Below are positions 31,213-46,641 of a stretch of 64,000 nt of DNA, piece by piece. The notes beneath the pieces are model-generated. The model saw only the letters and a list, made by a program, of their open reading frames with translations. It did not search any database and had not been told where the DNA came from. The DNA is from Rhizobium sp. GN54. Lineage in GTDB: Bacteria > Pseudomonadota > Alphaproteobacteria > Rhizobiales > Rhizobiaceae. The stretch's first letter is position 1; every line of letters begins with the position of its first letter. The DNA lies in contig NZ_JAJNCZ010000011.1 in the NCBI RefSeq assembly GCF_021026345.1, forward strand, positions 62,001-126,000, written 5' to 3'. Made by a program: the position numbers and the translations under genes.

Positions 31213-32343
31213 ATGGCTTACGATCTCGTGAAAACCAGCATGAGTAGCTTGATGCGGCCGGCTTTTGACGCCGGTATCGCTCTCACGCGTCTGGACGAGC
31301 GCATCGTCCGTTCGCCGGTTGGTCAGGGCTGGATCGAGCGGTCCCACTTCACCGACGCTTGCGCGTCCTTGTGGATCGGCGGTGAACTCGTTCACCTGGA
31401 GGACCTCGTCCTGCATGACGCCACCCGCGATATTCGCACGCCCACCCACGAGCTGACAATCGCCCGCGACGTGCTTCGCACCCGCCGGCGCATCGCCGGC
31501 CAAACCCCGGATTGGGCGTTCTCCGCCGACGGCATCCGCTCGCTGCGGAAAACCTCGGAGATCGGGGCGGGCGGCGCGGACGAGGCTACGACGAGCGGAG
31601 TTATTCGGCCGGCGATCGCGATCGACGCGGAGGGGGAGGGGGATGACGCCGACGACGCCCAAGATCTCCCCGGCGTCGACTATGCGGCTATCGATGCGTT
31701 GCTCGCGCGCTCTGACGCTGCGATCGAACGAGCCAAAAAGCCCGGCCGCGCCAGCTCGGCAGACAGAGACGCACTGGTCTATGATCTCGACTGGGACGAG
31801 GATGTCCGGCTCGATGAATGGCGTGGCGTGTTGCGTCAGGCCGAAAACTTGCCGGCGGTGCTGCAGGCCATCGTCGCCCTCGATGCCTGGACCGAGCTTG
31901 CCGTCTTGCAGCATGCACCCTGGCTCGGCCGGCTATTTGCCGCCTCCATCCTGCGCCAGGCCGGCGTCACCACCGGCGCGCACCTGGCCGCCATCAATCT
32001 GGGCCTCAAAACCATTCCGGTCGACCGGCGCCGGCATCGTGATCGGGAGACCCGGTTGCTCGCCATTGCTCACGGGTTCTTGGCGGCCGCCGAGATCGGC
32101 TTGAAAGAGCATGACCGACTGACTCTGGCGAAAACGATGATGGACCGAAAACTGGAGGGACGGAGGACGTCGTCAAAACTGCCGGAGCTGGTTGAGCTGG
32201 TGATGGCAAAGCCATTGGTGTCGGCCGGCATGGTCGCAAAAACGCTTGAGGTGACGCCGCAGGCAGCGCGGCGGATTGTTTTGGAACTGGGACTGAGGGA
32301 GATGACCGGGAGGGGGAGGTTTCGCGCGTGGGGGGTGTTGTAG
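31213..32343 (+). CDS. RHE_PE00001-type protein (DUF1612 plus HTH)
   Basis: This 376-residue protein matches a family that I recall only from plasmids of Rhizobiales, named RHE_PE00001, with an N-terminal DUF1612 domain ([27 protein letters not shown]) and a C-terminal helix-turn-helix ([41 protein letters not shown]). The ending fits a DNA-binding regulator. The function is not known; some homologues lie beside integrases, as here. Confidence 0.8.
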
Positions 32344-32420: not shown

Positions 32421-34820
32421 TCAGTTTGCCTTCTGCTTTCTTACGGTGCTGATCAACGCCTCGATCGCGGGCAGCAGTTTGTCTTTCTCTACAAATGCAG
32501 CCCAATCGGACCGGGTGGGAATTTGGTAGGAGTGGACTGTGCGGAGGGCAATCAAGGTGCGGTTCATCAGCGGCAATGATCCCTCCGCTATTATTGCTTC
32601 GATAAACTCGTCAGCTTTGTCCCACTCGTGTGAAAAAAGCCTTGCCAGTGATACGGCTGCTATTTCGATTGGACCTTGTGTTGGACAAAGGACGCGACCG
32701 AAACCTTCAATCTCGTGTTCAAGATGCCCCTCCGGGTCCAGGCTAGCACGCATCAGCGGAAATGCGCATTGCCCGACAGTAAATAGGATCTGGGCATCTA
32801 GCCTGTCGTCGATGTCGCCACCGGATGCCATCGGAAGAAGCGACAGATGCGCGAGCATCATCCAGGCCGTCGTGTTCGCTAACGTACGGGGCAGCTCATC
32901 AAGCTCGACAGGCTCACCGTAGAGGTTCCCTGCCCGGTCCGATCTCCACGCTTTACCCTCACGCACAACGAGATCAACGACCTCGCCATTCGCCGCTTGG
33001 AGCGCGATATGCCTATCTTCAAATGTGTCCTCTTGCGGTTCGATGTCGATGAGAGCCCTAACGATTTCTCGGCTGAAGCCACCCGTGGTCTCTGCAAGAA
33101 TGCGAATAGCTTGAGCACCGATTACTTCTCCAAGAAAGAAGCCTTCCAGCCGTGTTCCGAGCCAGCGCCCTCCGTCGTAAGGATTTTCGGTCACCATGGC
33201 ACTCAACATCTCGCTGGCGGCCTCCGCAAGTTCGGCTACAAACAAAGCAGGAATTGTCGGTACGACGACATCGATACGGCCGCGGCGGTAAGTCTGGATC
33301 TGACCTCTCGTCCGAAGTTCTCCCAGCGAGGCATGTGATTCTACCGATAATGCATCCCGACGGATAACAAAACCATTCGACTGCTCAAGCGCGAGATCCC
33401 CCGAAACCCTTTGATCGTCGGCAAGGGCGTCACGGGCAAGCGAGCGGTAAGCTCGCAGGAGCTCCGATTGGCCGGCAAAAGCGTTCTGCACATAGTCGAT
33501 CAAGCCTACGCCGAGCGTCGGTTGAAGCGTGACGCCCCATGTTTCGTCCTTGAAGCGCGAATTTCCCGCAACGTGATCATAGATCGTGCGCAAAATCCAC
33601 GGGACGCGATTTTCTTCGAAGAACGATGCGCCGCGGACAAGGAAGATCCGATTGTTCTCCATTATCGAGCAAGCGGCTTTGAATTCCTTGAGGTTCAGAG
33701 GACCAAGCTCAATTTCCTGGCTAAATGATCCAAGCTTGGTGACACCGCGCCCATTTCCCGTTCGCGTCAACCCCTCAGGTTGATCTGTCGTCAAGATTAC
33801 TCTGAGCCGTTCTCCGAGTCCAAGATCGGGCAGTTCTTGCAGATCCGAAGCGATCGCACTACCTGGCTTAACGCCATCGATTGCAATGACGAGAGTTGGC
33901 CCCGCGGGTCCCCTCGACATTCGGCGCAGCCAATGTCGAGCATCGTGAGGAGTCAGTGTCCACTCGAGTTCTCGCGAAAAGAGGTTCGACACGGCCTGAA
34001 AGAGGCCCGGACCACTATCCTGAAGCATCAGAACCGCCAGCTCGTCGCTCGCAGTCGTCCGCAGAGCTAACTCGCAGAGCAAGTTTGTCTTGCCACTTGC
34101 TGGTGGTCCGACCACGACAGTGAAAAGGTCGGCTCCAGTAAGCGCACTAGTTGCTTGCTCAGTGGCCTCGCGCGGAAAAATCAGGTCGCGGGCAACGGGC
34201 CGTCCTGTAGCGCCTGGCGGATCGGTCCACGTCTCGATCAATGCGGCGGTGCATTTACGAACCGCGCGCGGCCATATGTCGACCTCGCGACCCATCAACG
34301 CCTCAATCGCCCAGCGCATGTCGGCTGCGGCGACTTTACCAACATTCTCTAGCAAGTTCGTGATGGCGGCCTTGTCGTAGTCTCCAGTATCCAATCGCCG
34401 AGTGGTGTTGCTGTCGAAAAGCTGTGTGTGCTTGCCGTTGCTAACGATCAACAGAGGTGGGCGCGGCGTGAGCATGTTGGCGTAGCTTTGCGCCTGCTCG
34501 TAGTCGGTTTTTTGTAACGCGACCGTTTCCCGCTTCACTTCAAGGACAGCCAGCGGTCGGTCACCGTAAAAGATCAGGATATCGGCTCGGCCTGTCTTCT
34601 CCCAAAGTGCCGCGCTGTCGAATTCAAAGCTCTCGTGCCCGAGTCGAATTGTGAACCGTCGTTGCTGAACAAAATCGCCTTGTGAGAACGTTGGCAGAGC
34701 GGCTGCTAGAGCGCTGGTAATTCGGCTCTCTAGCTCCGCTTCAGTACGCAGCCTGCGGACATCTTGGCTTTCTACCTTCTTTCGTCGTTTCGCCGATCTC
34801 GGCTTTTTGGGTCTCGGCAT
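32421..34820 (-). CDS. P-loop NTPase with HsdR-like N-terminal nuclease
   Basis: This protein is about 799 residues from ATG 34820 (a GTG at 34865 is possible). A basic N-terminus (PRPKKPRSAKRRKK) precedes an HsdR_N-type nuclease domain with ADILIFYGDRPLAVLEVKRE, that is D...ExK. An ATPase domain follows: Walker A VVVGPPASGKTNLLCELA and Walker B TLVIAIDGVKPGS. The C-terminal half is helical without clear repeats. The nuclease-STAND-like-sensor layout recalls Avs-type antiviral NTPases, though I cannot place it in a named Avs class. It lies 112 bases after the AIPR gene on the same strand and may be the last gene of that operon. Confidence 0.65.
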   Translation of the reverse strand: MPRPKKPRSAKRRKKVESQDVRRLRTEAELESRITSALAAALPTFSQGDFVQQRRFTIRLGHESFEFDSAALWEKTGRADILIFYGDRPLAVLEVKRETVALQKTDYEQAQSYANMLTPRPPLLIVSNGKHTQLFDSNTTRRLDTGDYDKAAITNLLENVGKVAAADMRWAIEALMGREVDIWPRAVRKCTAALIETWTDPPGATGRPVARDLIFPREATEQATSALTGADLFTVVVGPPASGKTNLLCELALRTTASDELAVLMLQDSGPGLFQAVSNLFSRELEWTLTPHDARHWLRRMSRGPAGPTLVIAIDGVKPGSAIASDLQELPDLGLGERLRVILTTDQPEGLTRTGNGRGVTKLGSFSQEIELGPLNLKEFKAACSIMENNRIFLVRGASFFEENRVPWILRTIYDHVAGNSRFKDETWGVTLQPTLGVGLIDYVQNAFAGQSELLRAYRSLARDALADDQRVSGDLALEQSNGFVIRRDALSVESHASLGELRTRGQIQTYRRGRIDVVVPTIPALFVAELAEAASEMLSAMVTENPYDGGRWLGTRLEGFFLGEVIGAQAIRILAETTGGFSREIVRALIDIEPQEDTFEDRHIALQAANGEVVDLVVREGKAWRSDRAGNLYGEPVELDELPRTLANTTAWMMLAHLSLLPMASGGDIDDRLDAQILFTVGQCAFPLMRASLDPEGHLEHEIEGFGRVLCPTQGPIEIAAVSLARLFSHEWDKADEFIEAIIAEGSLPLMNRTLIALRTVHSYQIPTRSDWAAFVEKDKLLPAIEALISTVRKQKAN

Positions 34821-34932
34821 CTTTAGAGCTTCTGCAATGGTTTTAACCTTCGGAGTTACGAACACGTGCGCGCAAACGAGAGGTCGCGCAAACCTGATAA
34901 ACCGCCAGCTTCAGCGGTGGAGATTGGTGCTC

Positions 34933-37008
34933 CTATCCTGGTTCGCGCTGTGTCTCGTCGAACAAGCCGGCGGCACGCACCTTAGCAACACTCTCAAGCC
35001 CATGCTTCGCTTGTTTGATCGAAGGACGTCGGCTCCAACCCCCTGCGGCATAATTGGCCAGCGTCATGCAGATGCTGGCCAACTTGAAGTGCAGCACTCC
35101 GCTGCGCTGACCGGCCTCGGCCGCTGCCACCCAGACCGCAGATGGGATGCGCATGCATTCCTCGATCCGATCATAGTCAGCGACCTGCAGAGTCTGTCCA
35201 TGTCGATCCGTCACAGCGCCGGCCGTGCTTGGCGAGGTGCCGTTGAGCTCCGCCGGGAGCGGATCCGACAGTGTCGGAAGGTGATTGCGGACTTCAGCCC
35301 AGCAGTCTTCCTTCTTGAACCATTCCGTGGGATTGCGGCTACCGACACTGGCGCGCAGTGCCTGATCGATCATGGGTGCCCAGGCGGAGATGAGGGCCTC
35401 CATCTCGGTCGACAGCTTTTGCTGGCGCCAGACGAAGTCAAAATCGATACGACCGCCCGTGCGCTCTCCAAGCGCGGCGATCAGATATGCGACAATATTA
35501 ACGCCATACGCCGGAAACTTCATCGCTCTGACCAAGCGCTCGGTAGTACGATAGAGGATGGTTAGCGCAATCAGCCGGCGGAACCAGGCGGCGTCCGGGG
35601 GCGGAGCCGTCACCTCCTTGCGGCGCTGCATGAACGCCTGAAAGTTCTTCTGACCGCCAAAAGCGACACGCCAGGGGAAGCCGTCCCAAGCCGACAGATA
35701 ACGCGCGAGGTCGAGCTTGCCAAAGCGTCGAGCCTTTGGTGTCTGCTCCCGGAACGCGCGCTGCTCGGTGGTGCGGTATGAAGCTTTCTGCTCAGCCGCA
35801 AGCCATGATCCGCGCGCCCGCTCATAGAACCAGCGCCCGCGCCCGTTTTCGAGCCACGCATTGTTCGCCAGCGTCTCCACCTCGCGATGGAAGGGATCAT
35901 TGGCCGAGAAGTCGGCCTGCTGCACGGTATTCTGCCGGTTGGCCGCGCGAGAGATCGAGGAAACCATTTGCTCCAGATCCCCCTCTGTCACTCGGATAAT
36001 CTTGACCGGTACCTCCACCGCACCAAGCGCCACGCTTTCCTTGCGCCGGGCGCGGTGCAGCGACGCCGTCGTCTGTCCACCATTGACTATCTGCAGGCCC
36101 CGCAGACCGGTCAGGTACACCGCGCCGCCTTCACGCTCGAGTCGCACCTCGTCCGCGGTTGCAACCACGCCGTTGTTGAAAGCGAGGAACATCTCCGGCT
36201 GTTCGACCAGCGTGCGCCGCAGCTCGGCATTCACCGACTTGCGCCCGGAAAGTCCTAGAAATGCGCGCACATTCAGCTCGAGGAGATGCGTGCCGTATCG
36301 ATCGTAGATGCGCGACAGCGCCTCTCCCGGGAAAGCGGCAAGGAATGCCTCGTAATGCCCTGCGCCCGAGGCGACCGGCAGGCAAGCGATGCGATGGCCG
36401 GTCAGAGCTACGAGGTCTACGTCGATATCAGCGCGGGTCTGGCCTTCTCCAAGAACCCTATGCAACCGGACCATGTCATAGAGCTCGATCTCGACCGGCT
36501 TTCCATGACTGTCGACCGTCGCGGGGAGTGTGCCACCGGCAATGCAGTCTGTCAGCACGACGATCCGGAAGCGATCAATGCGCTCGCCAAGCACTGCCAC
36601 GCGGCGCGCCAAGTCCCCAGCTTCTGTATTGGACGGCTCGATGCGATCTGCCAAGCCACCAATGCATGCCGCTACATATGTGCCGGCTCTTTCCGCAGTC
36701 TTCAGCAGGTCCGAGGCGGGAACTCGACGCGGCGGCACGTCGCCAGAATAATGCGTTGCGAAGAGCGTCAGCTGGCCGGCGTCCTCATCGATCGCATACC
36801 CGCTGATCCGGAACGGTGACCGTCCGACCTTTCCCTCCTGGGGAAGATCAAACGCTGCCTCGAAGTGACCAATCTCCTCCAGCTCATCAATGACTAGGCG
36901 TGTGAAGAGCGCTTCGGTCGACGGGATGTCTATTGTCGGGTCATCACGAGCCTCGTCGACTTCTTCCGCCAATGCTCGAGCAAATTCCGACGTCGCATCC
37001 TCACTCAT
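34933..37008 (-). CDS. AIPR-family phage-resistance protein (Mza-like)
   Basis: This 691-residue protein shows the AIPR (abortive infection phage resistance) hallmark: GTHLLELNVRAFLGLSGRKS, VNAELRRTLVEQPEMFLAFNNGVVATAD and GLQIVNGGQTTASLHRAR. The N-terminal part (FTRLVIDELEEIGHFEAAFD) is also typical. AIPR proteins occur in restriction and abortive-infection loci with Z1 and MutL-like genes; their biochemical action is unclear. ATG 37008 overlaps the preceding nuclease gene by 8 bases, so all four core genes are coupled. Confidence 0.88.
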   Translation of the reverse strand: MSEDATSEFARALAEEVDEARDDPTIDIPSTEALFTRLVIDELEEIGHFEAAFDLPQEGKVGRSPFRISGYAIDEDAGQLTLFATHYSGDVPPRRVPASDLLKTAERAGTYVAACIGGLADRIEPSNTEAGDLARRVAVLGERIDRFRIVVLTDCIAGGTLPATVDSHGKPVEIELYDMVRLHRVLGEGQTRADIDVDLVALTGHRIACLPVASGAGHYEAFLAAFPGEALSRIYDRYGTHLLELNVRAFLGLSGRKSVNAELRRTLVEQPEMFLAFNNGVVATADEVRLEREGGAVYLTGLRGLQIVNGGQTTASLHRARRKESVALGAVEVPVKIIRVTEGDLEQMVSSISRAANRQNTVQQADFSANDPFHREVETLANNAWLENGRGRWFYERARGSWLAAEQKASYRTTEQRAFREQTPKARRFGKLDLARYLSAWDGFPWRVAFGGQKNFQAFMQRRKEVTAPPPDAAWFRRLIALTILYRTTERLVRAMKFPAYGVNIVAYLIAALGERTGGRIDFDFVWRQQKLSTEMEALISAWAPMIDQALRASVGSRNPTEWFKKEDCWAEVRNHLPTLSDPLPAELNGTSPSTAGAVTDRHGQTLQVADYDRIEECMRIPSAVWVAAAEAGQRSGVLHFKLASICMTLANYAAGGWSRRPSIKQAKHGLESVAKVRAAGLFDETQREPG

Positions 37009-37996
37009 CGCCCGTTCCTCCGAACGTATCGAATACCGCTGCCGCATCGACGGCAAATCTGACGAGCGCGCGCACCTCGATCTGATAGGTCGCCTCCGCG
37101 ATCCCGAGCGCTACATCGCTCCTTCGAAGCCGCGGGAAGCCATCGTTTACCGCGTAACAATCAATGCCCGCGAGGGCGACTCGCGGCCCGGAGTTCGTAT
37201 CGCCTCCGGGTGCAAGACCGCGACGCAAAAGCGCGTTGCGAAAAGCCCCACGCGCCCGCTCGCCATTTAGCCGCTGTTCGATCCGTGCGGTGATCTGGCC
37301 GAGCGTCTCGCCGGCAACCGACTCCACCAGACGGACGTGCGCGACGTGCAGGGAGACAAGACCGGCGTCGTCAAGCTGATCGAGCGTCGAAATATGGAGT
37401 CGCCGCGCCGCTCCCAGAGCGGTCTTCACCTCAAGCCCCTGACCCGAGAGCACAAAGTCATGTAACCCGTCATCAGGTGCCTTCCACGCGGCGACCGCTT
37501 CAGCGTTTTCATCCAGCATCCGATCGAGGACGAGGAGTTCACCGATCAGCCCAACTATTTCGTTTCTCGACAGGCCAGCGGCCTGATCGCGCAGAAACGC
37601 TCGCCACGCAGCGAGACGGGCGGCGAAGACTGTGACCAATTCAGTTTCGCCTTCATCCTCAGCGCGCAGGACGGAGCGGACGCAGTCGCTGCAGATCTCG
37701 GCGAAAAGATCACGTCGGGAGGTCTCCTCGAGTGAAAGGACCAGCAGGAAGCCACCGGGATCAGCGGTTCGGGATAGCCGCAGGCCCGCGGTCTCAAAAG
37801 AAGCAATGGAATTGCCAGCGACACCCGGCAACGCAACGAGACAAGGTGCGCCGTCAGCTTCCCGCAGACCCACGCGGAGATCGAGCTGCATCGGGCGAGA
37901 AAGCCGTCGGCTTCGATACAGCCGATCCCCCGGGGCTACGGCGGCCAGCTCGTCCCATTCCCTCAGTAACGCCGCCGCATCGGGAGTGACGCTCAT
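37001..37996 (-). CDS. DUF4420-like PD-(D/E)XK protein (Mza-like)
   Basis: This 331-residue protein contains IVGLIGELLVLDRMLDE and HDFVLSGQGLEVKTALGAARRLHIS, the E...D...ExK core of the PD-(D/E)XK motif family DUF4420. It is the expected nuclease of the MutL-Z1-DUF-AIPR set. ATG 37996 overlaps the Z1 stop (ATGA), giving translational coupling; a longer frame to 38035 is less likely. Confidence 0.8.
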   Translation of the reverse strand: MSVTPDAAALLREWDELAAVAPGDRLYRSRRLSRPMQLDLRVGLREADGAPCLVALPGVAGNSIASFETAGLRLSRTADPGGFLLVLSLEETSRRDLFAEICSDCVRSVLRAEDEGETELVTVFAARLAAWRAFLRDQAAGLSRNEIVGLIGELLVLDRMLDENAEAVAAWKAPDDGLHDFVLSGQGLEVKTALGAARRLHISTLDQLDDAGLVSLHVAHVRLVESVAGETLGQITARIEQRLNGERARGAFRNALLRRGLAPGGDTNSGPRVALAGIDCYAVNDGFPRLRRSDVALGIAEATYQIEVRALVRFAVDAAAVFDTFGGTGDE

Positions 37997-40737
37997 TGCG
38001 TCGCCCGCTGCTGGACGGTATTTTCCAAGCGCCACTCGGCCGAAGCTGTCGGGGAGGTCGGGAAACTCACGACTACACCCCAGAGCGGGATTCCAGCTTC
38101 CAGGCCAGCACCTGCCGGGTCGATCGGATAGAGAAGGAGCAGACCGCGACGCGGATCTTCACCACGGGCTCTTCGGATCCAAGGGCCGGAGGGACGGTCA
38201 GCGGGCGGCTCCCCCTCGTCGGCCAGCACCTGATCGGTATTTTCCTGCGCGCGGCGATACTGGTCGTCGCTCAGATCGATGGCCTCGTCGAGCGGGCTGA
38301 GGATCGACTTGGTGATAAAGCGCGCAGTGGTCGAACGGGCGATAGGCGAGCGACGAACGCTGCGCAGGTCGCGCCCTGCCACCTGAACATTGGCTCCGAC
38401 ACCAGCGGGTACGAACACCGCCCAGTCACTCAGTTCGCCCAGCTGAAGCTGCGTGGTGATATAGGCCGCCATACGTTTCCCATCGACGTCGCTGCTCTCA
38501 GGCGGAAACGCCAGAGCCTCAAGCAGCGCGGCGACGCGGTTGCCACGTACATTCCGCCAGATGAACCCGGCTGCCGGCGGGCGGCCTCCCGGCCGGGCCG
38601 GATCGATCTCCGGCTCTCCTAGTTCTTCGAGTAGACCGCTGACAACTGCAGCGTTCGCAATCGTAGTATCAGTGTCCCGGTATAGCACGGTCTGGATCTT
38701 GCCTTCGCCGGCATAGGTGACGGGACGGAGGGCAGCGTGTCGCCGTTTGTTCGCCGCCGTCACGTTCATAATACTATGGTCAGCGATGCTGAGACCGTAG
38801 AGTTTAGGCGTGCCCGCGGTGACGCGCATATGTGCCAGCTGCGCGCGGAGGTCTTCGTTCACCGTGGCCAAGTGCCGGAACCAAATCTCCATATCTGTGG
38901 TGGTGTACAGCCGGCAGAGATCGGCATAACCGCGCCGGTAACCGAACCAGCGCCCCATCTGCAGCAGACTGTCATACTGACGGGAGACGCGCAGGAAGTA
39001 ACTGGTCGAAAGACCTTCAAGCGTCAGCCCTCGTGACAGCTTGTCACCACCGATGACAATGACCGAGAGGCTCTGTCCGGCAGCGTCGGCAGCATCATAA
39101 TCAATGCCCGTACGGCTGCGGCCGTTGGATACCACGACCTGAATGCGGTCAGCCTCATCTCCAAGCTGTAGTGCGACCTCATCCCAGCCGACCTGTCGAA
39201 CAGAACGCGCGAATACGGAGGACGCCATTGCCTCAGTTGTCGGTTCGAAATCCTCGCACCAAAGCCGTTCAAGTTCCGCCATTTCGATCGGATCGGCCGC
39301 AGCGATAGCATTGCGGATCGAGCGAAGCGCTCCTTCGACCTGAGCATGAACCGGGTCATGAACATCCTGAAAACGCGAAACATGGACCAGCATGGTCTTG
39401 TGCGCATTGGCTTGGCCGCGGGCTGCGCGTGCCGCGCAGCAGACGACAAAGCTGCGGATCGCTTCCACGAGGCTTGGCGGGATGCGTGCCTCGCCCCGGT
39501 ATATGGGCCGCCAGTTCTTATCGTGCGGGTCAGGAATCCAGTTCTCAGCGGCCTGGTCGAGATGGCGAATGACTGGCAGCCCTACTGCTTCAGCGTCGTC
39601 GTCGCGACCGAACACCGCCAGTGGTCCGAAATAGTCGTCCGGAGCGGACAGCGACACGATGAAGGAGGAAGGAAACAGGTCGGCACCATAATCCTCAGCC
39701 GCACGCTCATCATGGATCATGATGTTGGCAAAGGGAGTCGCGGTGTAGCCGATATAGGCACTGCGCCTGAACCCGCCGAGCAGCTTGCGGATCTCGCCGT
39801 TGATGCGTTTCGGATCATAGTCTTCATCGAAGCTGCCGTCCGGGAGGAAACCCTGATCGCCGGTGTCAGGCGATGCCTGATCCGCCTCATCATCGATAAC
39901 GAGCAGTGGCGCGTTGCGCGATTCCTCGGGCAGCCGCGCGATCCACCGATTGAGGTTCCTGAGCACTGCGCCGTTCTTCTTGACGACGAACACGAACGGC
40001 CGGTTGGCCGGCGCGAAGTTGGAATTTTGCGCGACAGTTCGGTTGAAGTCGCCGTTCAACTGTGAGGTAGTCAGACTGTCCACCAGCTGTACCGGTCCCG
40101 GCAACAGGCCGACGCCGACCGGCCGGCGCCCTCCGCTTCCCGCAATGCCGGCGGTATCGAAGCCGAGAAAATCCTGGTCGAGACGCAGCTGGGTCTGGCG
40201 ACGCAGGATATTGTGCATGCCCGCCAGGACGATGATTACGCGATAGCCGGCATCAGCGGCCCGGTTGATGACCCCCGCATAGTGTGCGGTCTTGCCCGAC
40301 TGCACATTGCCGACTACAAGGCCGCGCCAATTCCATGGCACATCCCGGTTTGGATCATCGATCAGCTCGAGAACATCAGCCGTGCTTTCCTCAAGCGCCT
40401 CAATCGCACGCGGCGCCCACCCGTTCTCGCTCAATTTCTGCAGATAACGTGAGAAGAAGGCGCCCGGCCGACGGCGTTCGCCAAGATACCACGGCGGCGG
40501 CTGCGTTTCACCAAGCAGCCGGATCGACGGCCCCTGCGCAACCACGAAAAGTGCCTCTAGGTCGCGCGTCGCTGCTTGTATCTCGTCTTCGGTGAAACTG
40601 TGCCCGCTGGTCAACCCCACAAGCGGGGCCGAGGCGCACACTACGGCCATGATTTCATCCGTGCCCAGCGTGCGGTCGCCGGCTCGTGGACCAAGTGCAA
40701 CGCGGGCGGTATTCGCAAGCTGTGTGACCGGATCCAT
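37993..40737 (-). CDS. Z1-domain ATPase, helicase-like (Mza-like)
   Basis: This 914-residue protein is a Z1-family superfamily-2-like ATPase. Walker A is GLVVGNVQSGKTAHYAGVI and Walker B is PLLVIDDEADQASPDT. The Z1 region has RTGIDYDAADAAGQSLSVIV, VIGGDKLSRGLTLEGLSTSY and a motif VI-like QMGRWFGYRRGY. Z1 proteins were predicted to move on DNA for the MutL-linked restriction systems. It lies 4 bases after the GHKL ATPase gene and overlaps the DUF4420-like gene by 4 bases. Confidence 0.9.
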   Translation of the reverse strand: MDPVTQLANTARVALGPRAGDRTLGTDEIMAVVCASAPLVGLTSGHSFTEDEIQAATRDLEALFVVAQGPSIRLLGETQPPPWYLGERRRPGAFFSRYLQKLSENGWAPRAIEALEESTADVLELIDDPNRDVPWNWRGLVVGNVQSGKTAHYAGVINRAADAGYRVIIVLAGMHNILRRQTQLRLDQDFLGFDTAGIAGSGGRRPVGVGLLPGPVQLVDSLTTSQLNGDFNRTVAQNSNFAPANRPFVFVVKKNGAVLRNLNRWIARLPEESRNAPLLVIDDEADQASPDTGDQGFLPDGSFDEDYDPKRINGEIRKLLGGFRRSAYIGYTATPFANIMIHDERAAEDYGADLFPSSFIVSLSAPDDYFGPLAVFGRDDDAEAVGLPVIRHLDQAAENWIPDPHDKNWRPIYRGEARIPPSLVEAIRSFVVCCAARAARGQANAHKTMLVHVSRFQDVHDPVHAQVEGALRSIRNAIAAADPIEMAELERLWCEDFEPTTEAMASSVFARSVRQVGWDEVALQLGDEADRIQVVVSNGRSRTGIDYDAADAAGQSLSVIVIGGDKLSRGLTLEGLSTSYFLRVSRQYDSLLQMGRWFGYRRGYADLCRLYTTTDMEIWFRHLATVNEDLRAQLAHMRVTAGTPKLYGLSIADHSIMNVTAANKRRHAALRPVTYAGEGKIQTVLYRDTDTTIANAAVVSGLLEELGEPEIDPARPGGRPPAAGFIWRNVRGNRVAALLEALAFPPESSDVDGKRMAAYITTQLQLGELSDWAVFVPAGVGANVQVAGRDLRSVRRSPIARSTTARFITKSILSPLDEAIDLSDDQYRRAQENTDQVLADEGEPPADRPSGPWIRRARGEDPRRGLLLLYPIDPAGAGLEAGIPLWGVVVSFPTSPTASAEWRLENTVQQRATQ

Positions 40738-40741
40738 AAGC

Positions 40742-42232
40742 TCACTTCTCCCCCAATTTTCGGATAACTGCGGCGCGAAGCGCGGGCTGCATGATCCCTA
40801 GGGAGCGCAGCACCGAGTCGAGTCGGTCTCCAGTGTCGTCCATGTTATCCATGCTGCGTACCAGGGTTGCAAGCGGTGCTGCGAGTTCTGCAATCTCCGT
40901 AGCTGCCGGTTGCACAAACTCTGCGCCACCCTGCTCGGCCACATCCAACCAAATACGTTCAACCGGAACGGTAAGCTCAAGGGCAGAGAGCAGTCCTTCG
41001 AGCAGCTTCGATTCGGAACCAAGCGCCTGCGCCACAGCAGAAACTGCAGGATGGTCCCGCCGTACGCGATACCGTGGTATAGCTTTGGCGCTGCGCGCCT
41101 CCCATGGCCATGCTTCCCCGTCAGCGCTGCTCCGGCGGCCTTTGCCAACCGCCCCGACACCGCGCCAGGCGAAGACCTCGCGAGCGCGCCTCCGGCAGTC
41201 TGTACCAAGACCTGCTAAGCGCCCCCGAGCCCACGCGGGCGGTCGAGCAACAGATTTTCGGATATCGATCCGCCAAGCCTCATCCATTGAGGCGGGGAGG
41301 TCTAGTGCGATGCGGGCGAGGCGGCTCGATTCCTCGCGGGTCCAAGCCCGAGCGCCCCCGAGCCCAAGCCAGCCGCCGGCCGAGACGAGACGATCGCCCC
41401 GGTAAACGTAAAATCCCTGCCGTTCGACCCAACCGCCCGGCCCACCAGCATCTTCCCATTCACGCTCGCTGGTGAACCGGTCTCGATGAGGGAGAATATA
41501 GGGCCGTGCTGTAATGCTGCCGTCAGAACCGCGAATGATATCACGTGGCATTGCTATGGTTGCATCATGCCATCTGCAAAAGGGATCCCAGGCGGCGAGT
41601 GGGCGGCCGTTGACACTGATGGCCAGTCGCCGCGCCTCGCCGCTCAAAAAACGGTGAAAGGTCATCGCGAGATGCGCGCATATGTTAGATATCCTCTCAT
41701 TAAAGGTATCGCGATCGAGGCCCCAAAAGCCACCGAGTCGGTCCATTCGACTCCAACTCACCAGAGTGCCACTGCCTGTCGACTGGAATTCGGTCGCCAA
41801 CGTACCCGACGGCGATGCATCGGGCGCCGCAGCGGACCATCCCTGGCTAACGCGATCGACATCCCAGGTCAGCCGCGCGACAAAGCCTTCGCAGCGAGAC
41901 GCCACGGTCAGTTCCCGACACTGCGAGAGTGAGGCGGTCTTCAATCCGAGTCCGAACCGGCCGAGATCGCCAGCCTGCCGTTGGGCGTCGGGTCCAGCAC
42001 CCCCAAAGCGCATTGCCTCAACGAGTCGGTCGAAACTCATTCCGACACCATCGTCGAGAATTTCAACGAGCGGATTGCCATCGCGCCAATCTAGGTGAAT
42101 GCGGACCTTTCGCGCACCAGCGGCGAGCGAATTGTCAACCAGATCAGCGAGCGCTGTCTCCGGGGAATAGCCAAGACCCCGTAGAGATTTCAGTAATGCA
42201 TACGGTGATGGCGTTATTTCGATAGTACGCAA
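40742..42232 (-). CDS. GHKL ATPase, MutL/MORC-like (Mza-like)
   Basis: This 496-residue protein has the GHKL fold signature: N-box ETALADLVDNSLAAGA, G1 box VEILDDGVGMS and G2 box DLGRFGLGLKTAS. Related bacterial proteins are the group from which eukaryotic MORC ATPases were proposed to derive. It probably couples ATP-driven dimer closure to DNA recognition by the downstream nuclease proteins. TTG 42232 is supported by a GGAGG site 7 bases upstream. It leads the minus-strand operon and diverges from the regulator and methylase genes. Confidence 0.9.
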   Translation of the reverse strand: MRTIEITPSPYALLKSLRGLGYSPETALADLVDNSLAAGARKVRIHLDWRDGNPLVEILDDGVGMSFDRLVEAMRFGGAGPDAQRQAGDLGRFGLGLKTASLSQCRELTVASRCEGFVARLTWDVDRVSQGWSAAAPDASPSGTLATEFQSTGSGTLVSWSRMDRLGGFWGLDRDTFNERISNICAHLAMTFHRFLSGEARRLAISVNGRPLAAWDPFCRWHDATIAMPRDIIRGSDGSITARPYILPHRDRFTSEREWEDAGGPGGWVERQGFYVYRGDRLVSAGGWLGLGGARAWTREESSRLARIALDLPASMDEAWRIDIRKSVARPPAWARGRLAGLGTDCRRRAREVFAWRGVGAVGKGRRSSADGEAWPWEARSAKAIPRYRVRRDHPAVSAVAQALGSESKLLEGLLSALELTVPVERIWLDVAEQGGAEFVQPAATEIAELAAPLATLVRSMDNMDDTGDRLDSVLRSLGIMQPALRAAVIRKLGEK

Positions 42233-42388
42233 CAGACAGCCTCCGGTGGCAGACGGTGGAATGCATTTATGCCGACGCGCACCAAGTCGGAAATGCTGAG
42301 AGTAAGCCCGACAGAGCGAAACTGCGATTTTCGCCCTTTGGAAGCCAGCTTGGTGACTTACTCAGATCCTGTACAACTGCGTCCTTCG

Positions 42389-42428
42389 TGGTGAAAAGTG
42401 GTGCATATTGGTGCAATCTGATGTAGCC
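42389..42428. promoter_or_regulatory. four phased 10-bp repeats, probable RHH operator
   Basis: TGGTGAAAAG, TGGTGCATAT, TGGTGCAATC and TGATGTAGCC follow each other with an exact 10-base period, ending 22 bases before the ribbon-helix-helix gene, in the gap between the two divergent operons. RHH proteins commonly bind cooperatively to such closely phased direct repeats, so this is the likely switch for the methylase operon and possibly for the nuclease operon. Confidence 0.6.
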
Positions 42429-42450
42429 TAGACGTCCAGGGAGTATCTCA

Positions 42451-42636
42451 ATGTTGGCAACAGGTAAGACCGTCCGCACTACAGTGTTATTGCCGGAAGG
42501 CGTTTATCGCCAAGTGCAGGCGCTGGCCGTTACCAATGATGTATCAGCTGCCTGGGTGATTCGGCAGGCAGTTCTACAATATCTTGCCACGAAAGCCGGC
42601 CAAGCCGAGCTGCCGTTTGGAAGTGATCGGTCATGA
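42451..42636 (+). CDS. ribbon-helix-helix regulator of the restriction locus
   Basis: This 61-residue protein has an RHH/CopG-type fold: beta strand KTVRTTVLLPEGVYRQVQALA, then VTNDVSAAWVIRQAVLQYLA. A GGGAG site precedes the ATG, and its stop overlaps the methylase start (ATGA). It probably acts as a controller that times methylase and nuclease expression, the role C proteins play in other restriction systems. Confidence 0.8.
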   Translation: MLATGKTVRTTVLLPEGVYRQVQALAVTNDVSAAWVIRQAVLQYLATKAGQAELPFGSDRS

Positions 42637-44150
42637 GCATTGATCCGAAAGTTATCCGCCAGAAAATTCAGCGGTTAAACTCCGGCGCGCGCCCTCGTGT
42701 GCTTGATCTTTTCTCAGGCTGTGGTGGGATCTCGCTTGGTTTTCAGTCGGCGGGTTTTGAGATCGCCGCAGCGGTCGAGAATGATCCCGACGCGGCCCGC
42801 TCGCACGGACTCAACTTCCATCATGGAGAGGACCGCCATAGTATCCCACGTGACATCACCGCAACGTCGCCAGCTGCCCTTGCCACGGCGCTCGGCCTTG
42901 GCCCTGCGGCAGGCGCGTTCGATGTGATCGTGGGCGGCCCTCCCTGCCAGGCATTTGCGCGTGTCGGGCGCTCAAAACTGCGCGAGATCGCCGAACATCC
43001 GGAGGCCTTTAGACATGATTCTCGCGCCCGGCTCTATATTGAGTATCTGACCTACGTAGAAGCTTGCGCACCGCTCGCCGTGGTGATCGAAAACGTACCG
43101 GACATGCTCAATCATGGGGGACACAACCTCGCGGCAGAGATCGGTGAGATCCTAGCGAGCAAGGATTATGTCGTTCGCTACACGCTGCTCAACGCAGCGT
43201 TCTACGGTGTGCCACAGATGCGTGAGCGGATGATTCTCATCGCAATCCGAAAAGAACTTGCGGACGATGTCGAATTTCCCGCGCCGACACACTGGATTGA
43301 ACTACCGTCCGGCTATCAGGGTTCGCGCGCTGTAGCGCTTAAACTGGCCACAGGAAGGGATCTGCTCACCGAAGCAACCGGCGGCAGCGCATACAAGGCC
43401 GCTCCGGAGGCTGTTGAAACCCTGACGCCCGCCGTCTCCACCCAACAGGCCATCGGGGATCTTCCGGAAATAATGGCGCGGGAATTACTTGCCGAAGGGG
43501 CGCTTCGGCGTGGCACGCGTCGTCTTGACGCGATGCTTCCTTATGGCGGGCATAATCAGCAGAACGACTATGTGAAGGAGATGCGAACCTGGCCCGGGTT
43601 CGAGGGTAGCTCGCATGTGCGTGACCATGTGATCCGATATCTCCCGCGCGACTATCGTATCTTTGCTGGCCTGAAGCCGGGCGATCAGTATCCTGAGGCA
43701 CGTCGCTATGCGCTGAGTCTCTTCGAAGCCGAGCTCGAACGACTTCATGCCCAGGGTAAACGCCCCGAAGACGGCAGTTCCGAATGGGACGCGCTCAAGG
43801 CAGCTTTCGTGCCTCCGTACGATGCGGGGAAGTTTCCGAACAAGTGGCGCAAAATGGAAGCAATCACGCCTGCCCGCACCCTCCTCGCGCATCTCGGCAA
43901 GGATGGCTACAGTCACATTCATTACGATAGCCGGCAGGCGCGGCCGATCTCGGTACGCGAGGCAGCGCGCTTGCAGTCGTTTCCTGATGGCTTTCGCTTT
44001 GCCGGAACGATGAACCCTGCATTCCGTCAGATTGGCAACGCGGTCCCGCCGCTGCTCGCTCGCGCGATCGCTCTGACCCTGCGCAGTCAGCTTGTCCGAG
44101 GAGTGGCGACAGAGGACCTGCCGCGCGTGATAGGTGCAGGTCGCTTATGA
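42633..44150 (+). CDS. C5 cytosine DNA methyltransferase
   Basis: This 505-residue enzyme methylates cytosine at C5 in a specific DNA site. Motifs are visible in order: I (VLDLFSGCGGISLGF), IV with the catalytic Cys (GGPPCQAFARVGR), VI (VIENVPDM), VIII (VPQMRERMILIA), IX (PISVREAARLQSFPDGF) and X (QIGNAVPPLLA). A long segment between VIII and IX holds the target recognition region. The neighbouring Vsr gene fits, as Vsr repairs T:G mismatches that arise when 5-methylcytosine deaminates. The target sequence is unknown. Confidence 0.97.
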   Translation: MSIDPKVIRQKIQRLNSGARPRVLDLFSGCGGISLGFQSAGFEIAAAVENDPDAARSHGLNFHHGEDRHSIPRDITATSPAALATALGLGPAAGAFDVIVGGPPCQAFARVGRSKLREIAEHPEAFRHDSRARLYIEYLTYVEACAPLAVVIENVPDMLNHGGHNLAAEIGEILASKDYVVRYTLLNAAFYGVPQMRERMILIAIRKELADDVEFPAPTHWIELPSGYQGSRAVALKLATGRDLLTEATGGSAYKAAPEAVETLTPAVSTQQAIGDLPEIMARELLAEGALRRGTRRLDAMLPYGGHNQQNDYVKEMRTWPGFEGSSHVRDHVIRYLPRDYRIFAGLKPGDQYPEARRYALSLFEAELERLHAQGKRPEDGSSEWDALKAAFVPPYDAGKFPNKWRKMEAITPARTLLAHLGKDGYSHIHYDSRQARPISVREAARLQSFPDGFRFAGTMNPAFRQIGNAVPPLLARAIALTLRSQLVRGVATEDLPRVIGAGRL

Positions 44151-44728
44151 GCCGGCGCGAGGAGATAATCGTCGTCAGGTCACTTGCGGAATCGGACCTG
44201 GGTCTCTTCTCGGCGCACCGCTTGAGCGCCACCAGTAAGCAGCGCGCGATCGCACTGACCACACCTGTGGCGCGAAAGCTCCTGAGCGCGCAGTTGTTTG
44301 AAAAAGGCGGCGCGGACATGGATTTGATCTGTGTCTATGGCGGCTACGGAAACCGGGAATTCAGGAATATCGGCAAAGTCGGCAAGAACTGGCGCTTGGG
44401 CGGCCGCAAGATCACAGCCAACGCTTGCGCCTTCCTCGACAGCAAGGATTTCGTGCTGCTGCGGTCCGTTGCGGGAAATGACGGCGTTCAGCCGATCCTG
44501 ATGACGTTCATCGGCCGTCAACGCGAGCGTCTTCTCCACGCAGGGATCGTTGCCAGCCTTGTCGATGAATTCCGGGACAGCGTGGCCATGGTTTCAGCAG
44601 GGTCGGATGCCTTCAACGCACTCTCAGCGGCCTTTCCTGCCGTTCCAGCTGATCTAGCGATTGGAGCGCCCCTGGCTGAGGTCGATGTCGTACCCCAGGA
44701 GCAGGCTGCTGGGAGCGATGGCCGATAG
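44147..44728 (+). CDS. unknown protein between methyltransferase and Vsr
   Basis: I do not recognise this 193-residue protein. It begins MSRREEIIVVRSLAESDLGLF, overlaps the methylase stop by 4 bases, and its end overlaps the vsr start. It contains FVLLRSVAGNDGVQPILMTFIGR and a run of aliphatic strands. The tight coupling suggests that it serves the restriction system, for instance as an effector or specificity partner, but nothing in the sequence shows which. Confidence 0.7.
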   Translation: MSRREEIIVVRSLAESDLGLFSAHRLSATSKQRAIALTTPVARKLLSAQLFEKGGADMDLICVYGGYGNREFRNIGKVGKNWRLGGRKITANACAFLDSKDFVLLRSVAGNDGVQPILMTFIGRQRERLLHAGIVASLVDEFRDSVAMVSAGSDAFNALSAAFPAVPADLAIGAPLAEVDVVPQEQAAGSDGR

Positions 44729-45200
44729 ACTTACCCCGGAGCAGCGCCGGCTCAATATGAGCCGCATCCGCGCGAAGAATACAGCGCCAGAATGGACAAT
44801 ACGTCGGCTTCTGCACAGCCGGGGCTTTCGATACCAGCTTCATCGAACGGAGCTGCCGGGCAAGCCTGATTTAGTTCTTCCACGGTTTCGAACGGCGGTC
44901 TTTGTGCATGGCTGTTTCTGGCATGGTCACGCCTGCTCGTTGTTTCGCATGCCGGCAACTCGCACGGAGTTTTGGTCGGCGAAAATCGCTGTCAATCGTG
45001 AGCGCGATGCCGCTGCAATGACCGCGCTCAAAGATCTCGGCTGGCGCAGCCTGTGGATTTGGGAATGCGCGCTCAAGGGCCGCGGCCGGCTGCCGGAAAG
45101 CCAGCTCGCGGAGCAAGTAACAGCCTTCTTGAACAGCGATGCCATATTTAAAGAGATTGCGGAGAACCGAATTTCACCATCAGCGGAGGAGATTTTATGA
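44718..45200 (+). CDS. vsr: very short patch repair endonuclease Vsr
   Basis: This 160-residue protein is a Vsr endonuclease: it nicks next to T:G mismatches from deaminated 5-methylcytosine. It shows MADRLTPEQRRLNMSRIRAKNT, GKPDLVLPRFRTAVFVHGCFWHGH (catalytic Asp and zinc and active-site His), WSAKIAVNRERD and WRSLWIWECAL. ATG 44718 follows GGGAG and overlaps the upstream gene by 11 bases; a longer frame starting at 44661 is less likely. Confidence 0.95.
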   Translation: MADRLTPEQRRLNMSRIRAKNTAPEWTIRRLLHSRGFRYQLHRTELPGKPDLVLPRFRTAVFVHGCFWHGHACSLFRMPATRTEFWSAKIAVNRERDAAAMTALKDLGWRSLWIWECALKGRGRLPESQLAEQVTAFLNSDAIFKEIAENRISPSAEEIL

Positions 45201-45706
45201 GTGAAGTCCTGCCGGTTCCGGCAGCAGATCCGTCGGACGCTCTTGGTGACCTGAGCGATATCGCGCTGCTTCGATTGCGCGGTAGGGTCGCGGCGGAGCT
45301 CAAGCGACGCGGGCTGGCGTCGAATGTCGGGCAGGTCGCGGAAAGCCTTGCGATTGCCCTCTATAACGCCACGCCGGGCCGTCCCAATCTTCAATCTGCG
45401 CCGACGGGCACGCAGAACGTCGACGCCCTCTCACGGCGCGGGGACCGCTATTCGATCAAGGGCGTGCTCGATGCGCGTAAGACCGGCACTGTCTATCCGG
45501 ATCGCGATGACCCGGAAAAGCAGCTGTTCGAATATTTGCTTGTCGTGCGGATTGATTCCGATTGGCAACTGCTCGCAGTCTACGAGTTCGATTGGAAGAC
45601 GTTCTGCGAGGTGCGCAGCTGGGACAGACGGATGAATGCCTGGTATGTGGGGCTTGCAGCAAAGACCCTTTCGCGAGCGACGCTGTTCACGCCCCAGCCA
45701 GAATAG
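45197..45706 (+). CDS. restriction-endonuclease-like protein of the Mza/RM locus
   Basis: This 169-residue protein has VAESLAIALYNATPG, a DALSRRGDRYSIKGVLDARK core and EYLLVVRIDSDWQLLAVYEFDW. The E...D...xIKG pattern resembles restriction-endonuclease-like domains (DUF6998 type, as far as I recall). Its start overlaps the vsr stop by 4 bases, so it is the last gene of the plus-strand operon. It could be the cleavage partner of the methylase; this is inference. Confidence 0.6.
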   Translation: MSEVLPVPAADPSDALGDLSDIALLRLRGRVAAELKRRGLASNVGQVAESLAIALYNATPGRPNLQSAPTGTQNVDALSRRGDRYSIKGVLDARKTGTVYPDRDDPEKQLFEYLLVVRIDSDWQLLAVYEFDWKTFCEVRSWDRRMNAWYVGLAAKTLSRATLFTPQPE

Positions 45707-45804: not shown

Positions 45805-46641
45805 TCAATCCGCGCTGTGAATGTCGCGAAAACTTGTGATTGCTGCGACGAGATTGGCATGAACCCAGCCGGCCTTCTCGTCACCAGTGAAAAGTCCGTC
45901 GAAGTACGTGGCATACACAGCGAAACCGAGATCGATGAGGTCATTGCTCATTCGATCCATGCGCACCACCACTTGACTACCGCCCCGGATCCACCAGAGC
46001 AGATTGATCACTATGCCCAACGCATACCGAAAGAGATAGGCCCGGCATACGACGGTTTCGTCGAGGCCCTCCCACTCGATTTCATAATGGTCTGCCAAAG
46101 TTTCCCAAATCTGCAGCGCGGCGCCGAAGATGGTGAGGATCATCTGTTCGGTGTACTTGCCGGCCGTCCTGATAATCCGAATCTCCTTATGATTGAACAT
46201 TTGCTCCTGCATCTCAGGAAAAGACACGGCGATGTCCGTCGCGCCGTCGATCAACGAAGGTTGCAGTGTTCGTGCCCAGTCCCATAACGAGGTCAATCGA
46301 GCCGCCGCCAGATCGCCCATTGGTTCGTCAGATCTTACAAGGCGAACAAGTTCGCCGATCTCGCCTTCATGTCCGTTGAAGACCAGTCGGTTCAGATCCT
46401 CAGCGACCGCCGGATCCAAGCGCGATATATGGCCGCCGGACCGAAGGAGGATCACCTGCTCAGGATGATCGCCGACGACAGATAGCCCCAATCTCAGCCC
46501 TTCCAAGGATTGCTGCTTGTAGAGTTCGTACCACGCGAAATCCGGGAGTATAGCCAGATTGCCGCTTTCTTCCGTAAAGTAGCGGCGGAGTTCGTCCGAC
46601 TGCAGCATATTGCTGTCGATCACGTAGGCTTTCATTACCAT
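45805..46641 (-). CDS. PIN-like domain protein
   Basis: This 278-residue protein begins MVMKAYVIDSNMLQSDELRRYF, with the first acidic residue of a PIN ribonuclease fold (VIDSN), an ILPDFAWYELYK segment, and a C-terminal block LIDLGFAVYATYFDGLFTGDEKAGWVHANL resembling the last PIN acidic cluster. ATG 46641 or 46635 may be the start. It lies 4 bases after an HNH-type gene on the same strand, so the two form a pair, possibly an effector module. It converges on the end of the plus-strand restriction operon. Confidence 0.6.
   Translation of the reverse strand: MVMKAYVIDSNMLQSDELRRYFTEESGNLAILPDFAWYELYKQQSLEGLRLGLSVVGDHPEQVILLRSGGHISRLDPAVAEDLNRLVFNGHEGEIGELVRLVRSDEPMGDLAAARLTSLWDWARTLQPSLIDGATDIAVSFPEMQEQMFNHKEIRIIRTAGKYTEQMILTIFGAALQIWETLADHYEIEWEGLDETVVCRAYLFRYALGIVINLLWWIRGGSQVVVRMDRMSNDLIDLGFAVYATYFDGLFTGDEKAGWVHANLVAAITSFRDIHSAD

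Follow-up and report, generated by a model that had tools for sequence, protein, structure and literature searches.

A conserved GHKL-Z1 restriction-like locus with an unusual methylase cassette in Rhizobium sp. GN54

Two divergent gene sets at the locus

The locus considered here lies at positions 34933-45706 of a 64,000-nucleotide stretch of the genome of Rhizobium sp. GN54 (contig NZ_JAJNCZ010000011.1), called the window throughout, and is a conserved member of the published class of methylation-guarded GHKL-Z1 systems that carries an unusual methylase cassette. It probably encodes a bacterial anti-virus system. It is formed by two divergent, close-packed gene sets that face each other. The minus-strand set (the effector arm) comprises the GHKL, Z1, DUF4420 and AIPR genes, and the plus-strand set (the methylase arm) comprises the genes for an RHH protein, a C5 methylase, an orphan protein, Vsr and a BisI-like nuclease. 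All the genes that an earlier note, made from the letters of this DNA, had named in this region are present where it placed them; the joint operon that it proposed gives way to the two divergent sets. The features are as follows.

34933-37056, minus strand: AIPR protein (MzaE-like); Pfam AIPR 5.4e-81 and AIPR_N 1.2e-33, PADLOC MzaE 1.3e-98
37001-38035, minus strand: predicted DUF4420 PD-(D/E)XK nuclease (MzaD-like); Pfam DUF4420 2.8e-58, PADLOC MzaD 9.5e-28
37993-40737, minus strand: Z1-domain superfamily 2 (SF2) helicase-like ATPase (MzaC-like); Pfam Z1 1.2e-71, PADLOC MzaC 2.9e-164
40742-42232, minus strand: GHKL/MutL-like ATPase (MzaB-like); Pfam HATPase_c_3 1.1e-28, PADLOC MzaB 3e-106
42389-42423, plus strand: candidate RHH operator, four TGRTG units with an exact period of 10 base pairs, starting 62 bases before the RHH start
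42451-42636, plus strand: RHH (CopG-type) regulator, 61 residues; Pfam RHH_1 3.3e-5
42633-44150, plus strand: C5-cytosine DNA methyltransferase; Pfam DNA_methylase 1.5e-54
44147-44728, plus strand: orphan protein, 193 residues, without family match
44661-45200, plus strand: Vsr endonuclease; Pfam Vsr 4.2e-31, NCBIfam vsr 143.9 bits, above the cut-off
45197-45706, plus strand: BisI-like PD-(D/E)XK nuclease, 169 residues; PADLOC mREase_II 8.8e-49

The RHH/methylase, methylase/orphan and Vsr/nuclease junctions are each a 4-base overlap. The tight coupling formerly claimed for the four effector genes also holds, as the listed open reading frames (ORFs) overlap by more at Z1/DUF4420 and DUF4420/AIPR, and GHKL and Z1 are separated by a 4-base gap. 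The longest Vsr ORF begins at TTG, and a 160-residue homologue annotated on a plasmid (L097) suggests a start at the ATG at 44718.

The effector arm is related to Mza

The GHKL protein carries the motifs DLVDN, DDGVGM and GLGLK, and phmmer gives it weak matches in the PDB to both MORC2 and MutL (best 5.8e-4). The Z1 protein has the Walker A motif GNVQSGKT, together with DDEAD and TATP, and its residues 589-599 (DSLLQMGRWFG) fit the signature DThhQXuRhFG of Iyer 2008, with T to S as the sole departure; a simple helicase motif VI pattern failed on this protein, yet the string QMGRWFG is present. An E...D...EVK pattern is found in the DUF4420 protein. Within the limits used, PDB sequences gave no match to the Z1, AIPR and DUF4420 proteins.

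According to PADLOC, homologues of MzaB, MzaC, MzaD and MzaE are adjacent and in that order, which is the part of the earlier assignment to Mza that stands. Mza itself (mzaABCDE, Gao et al. 2020) was compared via its models and the account of Miller 2022, and the window shares with it these four homologues in the same order, but differs in its scores, in the lack of MzaA on the contig and in having a methylase arm. The NCBIfam equivalog cut-offs were all missed (MzaB 418.8 against 850 bits, MzaC 658.9 against 1500, MzaD 147.6 against 420 and MzaE 448.8 against 1050), the scores being about one third to one half of those required. MzaA (NF041931) was not found on the window's contig (contig 3), and the matches elsewhere in the same genome, on contigs 27, 23 and 22, are all below the cut-off; this model also matches in 10 of 14 control genomes, and the own-genome matches are probably ordinary sigma factors. 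Sigma-factor-like ORFs of four other loci (L068, L069, L072 and L086) were likewise rejected as MzaA, with phmmer values of 2e-13 to 7e-5 and no PADLOC match. Because MzaA is lacking on the contig and all four cut-offs are missed, the minus arm is classed, from its profile matches, as a relative of Mza ('Mza-like') and not as Mza proper.

The methylase arm and its repeat array

The methylase exceeds the NCBIfam dcm cut-off (171 against 100.65 bits), has the PCQ and ENV motifs, and also matches PADLOC DrmMII at 8.9e-64, among 60 methylase-type models. Vsr has its HGCFWHGH motif. Homologues of the RHH protein on plasmids are annotated as CopG family regulators, and the TGRTG array that precedes its gene is one that we take to resemble RHH operators. 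The array is kept at 20 of 20 positions in eight of nine near-identical loci and at 18 of 20 in the ninth (L002), the best score in 300 mononucleotide shuffles per locus being 14-17. The stretches before the RHH gene of L102 (13/20) and L108 (12/20) and before the methylase gene of L107 (15/20), three loci that are described below, showed no such array.

Searches of Pfam (up to E 10, with eight members), PADLOC, NCBIfam and, with a profile, the PDB gave no match to the orphan protein. Its gene sits between the methylase and Vsr genes in all 12 loci in which it was found, and the string GKNWRLGG is invariant across eight aligned homologues, down to 45% identity.

A small nuclease that resembles the BisI family

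The last gene of the plus arm, which the earlier note had listed as 'restriction-like' without recognising its BisI-like nature, encodes a small nuclease that resembles the 5-methylcytosine (5mC)-dependent enzymes of the BisI family; the homology is remote, not close. Searched as a single sequence it reaches the family at E 0.07; with a profile built from 12 homologues, Eco15I is matched at E 6.7e-5 (positions 10-156) and NhoI at E 0.2. Both are described as BisI-family enzymes that cleave GCNGC with several 5mC (PMC11347163, PMC4926085, PMC8281217). Pfam DUF6998 is weakly matched by 8 of the 12 homologues (best 2.5e-6), the window copy, at 0.011, being below the cut-off.

Besides this profile match, the protein shares with the BisI family its size, the E/D/K residues and the (H/R)(V/I/T/M) motif, but differs in having Ser for the Gln of QxK and in the position of its gene alongside those of a C5 methylase and Vsr. 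Residues E49, D76, K88 and R145 are invariant in all 12 homologues. The D-x9-SxK spacing equals the D69-x9-QxK of Eco15I, although HMMER inserts a gap at this place and aligns D76 to a nearby Asp. R145-M/T146 aligns to the HV of Eco15I, residue 146 being M in 11 homologues and T in one, so that the internal-methyl contact motif (H/R)(V/I/T/M) is present, a motif of two residues and thus of limited weight. The model of the protein is poor, with a predicted local distance difference test score (pLDDT) of 50, and the top five Foldseek matches are chains of Eco15I and NhoI (E 0.04-0.6, TM 0.19-0.30); none falls under E 0.001, and this partly sequence-driven ranking gives mild support for the BisI likeness. 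No relative of the orphan or BisI-like protein was confirmed when viral contigs were scanned by pattern, and a search of phage records for the BisI-like protein alone found none.

Conservation in close relatives

One peptide-pattern Z1 scan of a species-genome collection, which detects close relatives only, gave six loci (L001-L006), from Rhizobium, Pinisolibacter, Sphingomonas (two), Sphingobium and Nguyenibacter. The gene-order comparison called for earlier shows all nine genes in the same order in five of these six (L001, L003-L006) and in the rhizobial plasmids pRmeGR4a and p42f (L097, L098); the remaining relative, L002, retains seven of the nine, its Vsr gene being broken and its nuclease gene missing. 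Comparison with L003, L004 and L006 puts the ratio of nonsynonymous to synonymous substitution (dN/dS) of the nine genes at 0.03-0.23, with 0.05-0.09 for the orphan and 0.04-0.10 for the nuclease. These values are rough: dS, at 1.25-3.4, is close to saturated throughout, and of the 27 comparisons two, those of RHH and Vsr with L003, gave no usable dS. In an out-of-frame control of the orphan and nuclease genes dN was above dS, the opposite pattern.

Methylase and Vsr accompany distant Z1 loci

The association of the two arms was followed in 44 more distant Z1 loci, namely 42 from 40 genomes (13 at class, 17 at phylum and 12 at family level) and two on plasmids (L099, L100); the window and the eight near-identical loci (L001-L006, L097, L098) are excluded from these counts, and G515 is not among the loci. 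Genes were called with our own iterated profiles at E 1e-4. DUF4420 is present at 43 of the 44 loci, the C5 methylase at 41, Vsr at 37, GHKL at 35 and AIPR at 33, with the caveat that some loci run into contig edges (e.g. L029), where absences may be false. When all four effector genes are present (31 loci), the methylase accompanies them in 29 and Vsr in 26. Across 41 genomes, own included, Vsr lies within 10 kilobases (kb) at 36 of 43 Z1 places, and 36 of 51 above-cut-off Vsr places lie near Z1; under uniform placement in 4.2-Mb genomes, about 0.27 would be expected. The independence of the two arms that the earlier note had named as refuting its proposal is not what is seen, as co-occurrence is far above chance. 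Methylase plus Vsr are thus the rule for the GHKL-Z1 family within this sample, while the RHH, orphan and BisI-like genes are each found at one of the 44 loci (L081).

The position of the methylase gene varies. In the 42 loci counted with the window (which is also included in the tree comparison), it is upstream on the same strand in 25, downstream on the opposite strand in 10, upstream on the opposite strand, as in the window, in five, and downstream on the same strand in two; a further three loci lack the gene. The face-to-face arrangement of the window is among the less common ones.

The cassette recurs beside other defence genes

The methylase, orphan, Vsr and BisI-like nuclease recur together as a cassette, which looks like a plug-in common to other defence systems. 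In a genome of the same family (G796; L107, 9124-19037), methylase, orphan, Vsr and BisI-like genes follow immediately on those of a NERD-UvrD helicase, DrmB and a split DrmA, an arm that is DISARM-like as judged from these predicted proteins; no Z1, GHKL, DUF4420, AIPR or RHH match was found in the 20 kb fetched. On a Rhizobium leguminosarum plasmid (L102, 4257-10507) there are RHH, methylase and Vsr genes, with the nuclease, 85% identical to that of the window, on the opposite strand and the orphan absent. The neighbours there are an AAA-type protein (below the Pfam cut-off; PADLOC PDC-M26A 1.8e-43) and a DUF2357-PDDEXK_7 (McrC-like) protein, and by these matches the arm is McrBC-like. The DISARM-like and McrBC-like cases are one example each.

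The whole cassette is also present in G429 (L081/L108), where it stands opposite a Z1 arm. The Z1 protein there is only 31-35% identical to that of the window, against 68-75% for the methylase. In Rhizobium sp. T1473 (L101) the orphan, Vsr and a nuclease with a different C-terminal end are found among transposases with a fragment of the methylase, and a plasmid of R. hidalgonense has matches to Z1, the orphan and the BisI-like gene. A more distant nuclease homologue, 38% identical, is encoded on an Exiguobacterium plasmid (L103, 7995-8513), with no annotated methylase across the 16.5 kb fetched.

The cassette is rare. The nuclease profile matches three of 198 family genomes and two of 396 phylum genomes (own genome in both), and the orphan profile one of 362 class genomes, namely the own genome. 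Among plasmid records, 30 have Z1 (neighbourhoods of four examined: H1, H2, H4 and H5), eight have the BisI-like gene (neighbourhoods of five examined: L097, L098 and L101-L103) and five match the orphan profile.

Effector and methylase trees correlate weakly

Trees of 31-45 loci were compared by correlating patristic distances, with 500 permutations. The effector genes agree with one another at r 0.78-0.91 (0/500 permutations each), and methylase and Vsr at r 0.43 (0/500). Between the arms, the values are r 0.19 for Z1-methylase (17/500) and 0.08 for Z1-Vsr (90/500), 0.37 for GHKL-methylase (0/500) and 0.19 for GHKL-Vsr (19/500), 0.14 for DUF4420-methylase (21/500) and 0.23 for DUF4420-Vsr (6/500), and 0.37 for AIPR-methylase (1/500) and 0.32 for AIPR-Vsr (0/500), all of them weakened by saturated distances (many pairs at about 30% identity) and by the shortness of Vsr. 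Raw identities compared with those of Z1 give the same kind of picture, with 0.82 for GHKL, 0.73 for AIPR and 0.66 for DUF4420, and with 0.16 for the methylase (47/1000 permutations) and 0.04 for Vsr (252/1000). From the tree correlations it follows that the effector genes move as a block and that the methylase arm is swapped more often, some common signal being left.

Genes around the locus

The gene beyond AIPR (32421-34865, minus strand) encodes a protein of 814 residues with an HsdR_N domain and a P-loop, with a weak STAND NTPase match. It had been proposed as the nuclease-NTPase that follows the effector genes, and is rejected here as a component of the unit and kept as a neighbour only, because its sole relative among all fetched loci is cut short: in L001, directly behind AIPR, residues 7-331 of the 814 are matched, as is a tail of 25 residues. 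The sequence of L006 stops 247 bases beyond AIPR and is uninformative on this gene.

Further out on this side lie a recombinase-like protein, read from the sequence by eye (29866-31014, minus strand), and a gene related to the 'RHE_PE00001 family' (31213-32343, plus strand). Relatives of both also adjoin the Mza-like locus of a plasmid of Rhizobium sp. B230/85 (L099), hinting at a common insertion site. A 547-residue protein encoded at 28042-29685 (minus strand) contains several CxxC pairs and, judged by eye, is zinc-ribbon-like. On the other side, two adjacent minus-strand genes (45805-46641 and 46646-47473) are convergent to the cassette and encode proteins without confident family, the second with a sub-threshold HNH_5 match; the pair has counterparts of about 90% identity in L001, L097 and L098, and no match in L002-L006. 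They are followed by a 921-residue SMC/RecF-like AAA ATPase (47923-50688, plus strand; AAA_23 above and AAA_13 below the cut-off), possibly another defence gene of the island.

Relation to described systems

A methylase beside an Mza-like arm has already been described and is not new. The earlier note had regarded methylation as non-standard in this setting, a view at odds with the methylase at 41 of 44 loci and with three precedents: Iyer 2008 (PMC2292703), Miller 2022 (PMC9523054) and a Corynebacterium island reported to hold a Z1 helicase, DUF4420 and a Dcm-like methylase (PMC5379612). GHKL-type genes have also been linked to C5 methylases and Vsr (PMC8011034).

The neighbourhoods of Iyer 2008 bring together GHKL proteins and SFII helicases, nucleases of the restriction endonuclease (RE) fold, cytosine methylases, Vsr and AIPR, and looping of DNA between recognition and cleavage sites was proposed there (PMC2292703). 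The link to this work drawn in the earlier note is well founded, since the neighbourhood type matches: the MORC/paraMORC neighbourhoods have in common with the window GHKL, an SFII helicase with DThhQXuRhFG, an RE-fold nuclease, AIPR, a cytosine methylase and Vsr, whereas their description mentions no BisI-like nuclease, orphan or RHH protein (PMC2292703). Figure 2 of that paper merges many loci, so the whole set may or may not be present at any single one. With GHKL, a motif-bearing helicase, an RE-fold nuclease, a cytosine methylase and Vsr, the window has the gene set of the type-3 GHKL neighbourhood.

Miller 2022 predicted a defence system with a core of Z1, a DUF nuclease and a cytosine methylase, to which type II adds AIPR, a MORC-type protein and a regulator; it is called 'reminiscent' of mzaABCDE, with MzaA in few (PMC9523054). 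The window has the type II set of Z1, DUF4420, C5 methylase and AIPR. Compared by description, type II matches it in Z1 (925 residues), the PD-(D/E)XK DUF protein (printed DUF4220), the cytosine methylase, AIPR, the MORC-type protein and the putative regulator, whereas Vsr is unnamed for this type (a link to DNA repair endonucleases is given for type I) and BisI-like and orphan genes go unmentioned in that description (PMC9523054).

The biochemical precedent is provided by CglI and NgoAVII, restriction-modification (R-M) systems in which, as in the window, a Z1-domain SF2 ATPase acts with a C5 methylase, and whose cleavage in vitro is reported to need ATP hydrolysis (Zaremba et al. 2014; PMC4267653). 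They differ in that the nuclease is a PLD-B3 protein, and their three-gene description has no GHKL, DUF4420 or AIPR (PMC4267653); no PLD match was found in the ten window proteins scanned. In the part of the open-access literature that was searched we did not find described a BisI-like gene with Vsr or a GHKL-Z1 arm, nor swapping of the cassette, and no mechanistic study of GHKL-Z1 restriction systems was found. New here are the BisI-like identity of the nuclease, the recurring cassette, the weak correlation of effector trees with those of methylase and Vsr, and the TGRTG array.

Proposed mode of action

Probably, the locus encodes an ATP-dependent restriction system guarded by methylation, such as those described in Iyer 2008 and predicted as 'type II' in Miller 2022. 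In favour of this are the domain identities, the kept gene order with its low dN/dS, the frequency of methylase, Vsr and the other effector genes at distant Z1 loci, the published precedents, the BisI-like features of the nuclease and the repeat array. The model proposes that the plus arm supplies the self mark: the C5 methylase would mark host DNA at a short motif, Vsr would repair the T:G mismatches that result from deamination of the methylase's 5mC, and the RHH protein would bind the TGRTG array, limiting its own operon. The minus arm would carry out the attack, in which DUF4420, or a partner, would find unmarked sites, the Z1 ATPase would translocate on DNA, a role suggested for its counterparts in CglI and NgoAVII, the GHKL protein would loop or clamp DNA as MutL does, and DUF4420 and/or AIPR would cut, or halt the infected cell. 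The BisI-like nuclease would apply the opposite test, cutting DNA with more, or differently placed, 5mC than the host mark, and a phage evading the first arm via heavy C5 methylation would still be attacked by it.

If the nuclease depends on 5mC, having a C5 methylase next to it would be self-destructive for the cell, except where the host mark lies outside what the enzyme requires, as the model supposes. Known GCNGC-type methylases are expected to add at most two methyl groups per site, overlapping sites excepted, according to the structural BisI paper, and Group I BisI enzymes are reported to cleave GCNGC bearing only two 5mC. Since some BisI enzymes cut at two 5mC, a host motif other than GCNGC is the safer guess. 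BisI is reported to coexist with a C5 methylase of another specificity (PMC11347163, PMC4926085, PMC8281217), and a C5 methylase gene is described as adjoining BisI in B. subtilis T30, where the copy is inactive, and in four other Bacillus genomes.

Several observations weigh against this reading. The metal-binding Gln of QxK is replaced by Ser86 in all 12 homologues, and no conserved Arg is seen in the stretch corresponding to the pocket arginine (Arg98 of Eco15I), the alignment being uncertain there; the nuclease could be inactive or altered. In the BisI-family papers, every active-site change of Eco15I, including Q79A, abolished activity, and Pam7902I Q72A retained partial activity (PMC11347163, PMC4926085, PMC8281217). 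A GCNGC methylase in the same cell as an enzyme that cuts at two 5mC could be lethal. Most BisI homologues are stated to have no nearby methylase (same papers), so that methyl dependence has possibly been lost at the window. The orphan has no part in this model, and its predicted structure (pLDDT 31) is unusable. As for the effector arm, GHKL is missing at nine and AIPR at 11 of the 44 distant Z1 loci, and the weak agreement of Z1 with methylase and Vsr is unexpected if the specificity of DUF4420/Z1 matched that of one methylase.

A bolder version, which we hold to be doubtful as a whole, takes the cassette as a portable two-sided methylation checkpoint. The methylase would set the 5mC level of self, the motor arm, whether Mza-, DISARM- or McrBC-like, would destroy DNA with too little and the BisI-like nuclease DNA with too much, the orphan would shield the host mark, and the effector would draw its specificity from the plugged-in methylase.

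It could also be argued that two full systems lie side by side, a Type II R-M cassette, in which the BisI-like protein is an ordinary cognate enzyme blocked by methylation, and a methylation-independent Mza-like system. Genes of the R-, M-, V- and C-like kinds are all found in the plus arm alone. Of the 13 fetched loci with the BisI-like gene, 12 have a C5 methylase next to it (the window, L001, L003-L006, L097, L098, L081/L108, L107, the L101 fragment and L102; not L103); L107, L102 and L101 have the cassette, or the greater part of it, but no Z1 arm; and the trees of the two arms correlate weakly. However, of the 44 other Z1 loci 41 have a C5 methylase and 43 lack the BisI-like gene, so it is the Z1 arm itself that retains a methylase nearby. 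In addition, the methyl-contact motif, which the BisI-family authors state to be absent from PvuII, is kept as R(M/T) in 12 of 12 homologues, and the Exiguobacterium homologue has no annotated methylase in the fetched sequence. This arrangement is judged unlikely.

Mod and HsdM act as recognition subunit or licence in Type III and Type I systems. The methylase may similarly be the recognition subunit or licence of an effector arm that lacks a fixed specificity and accepts any C5 methylase, an option to which we give a low probability. The agreement among effector genes beside values of 0.19 and 0.08 for Z1 with methylase and Vsr, in loci where the methylase is nearly always present, and its variable position among 42 loci, are in its favour. 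Methylases differing in sequence, however, can have the same motif, many distances are near saturation, GHKL and AIPR still correlate with the methylase at 0.37, and in CglI/NgoAVII the R protein is described as bearing its own DNA-binding domain and the methylase as active alone (PMC4267653).

Finally, that the C5 methylase-Vsr arm is a passenger, landed near Z1 by chance because defence genes cluster in islands, is highly improbable: another defence-like gene (the SMC/AAA ATPase) is nearby and the cassette is mobile between defence arms, but island clustering, while lifting chance above the uniform expectation, would hardly bring it to the 84-93% seen for Vsr and methylase.

Significance

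If the nuclease of this probable methylation-guarded restriction system is methylation-dependent, one operon would write 5mC and also cut DNA bearing 5mC, and it would offer a route to how a cell sets the upper and lower limits of its own mark. The comparison of effector and methylase trees leads to a testable claim on the site of specificity in GHKL-Z1 restriction systems. If neither the methylation dependence nor the claim on specificity is true, the locus would be a well-conserved example of a published system.

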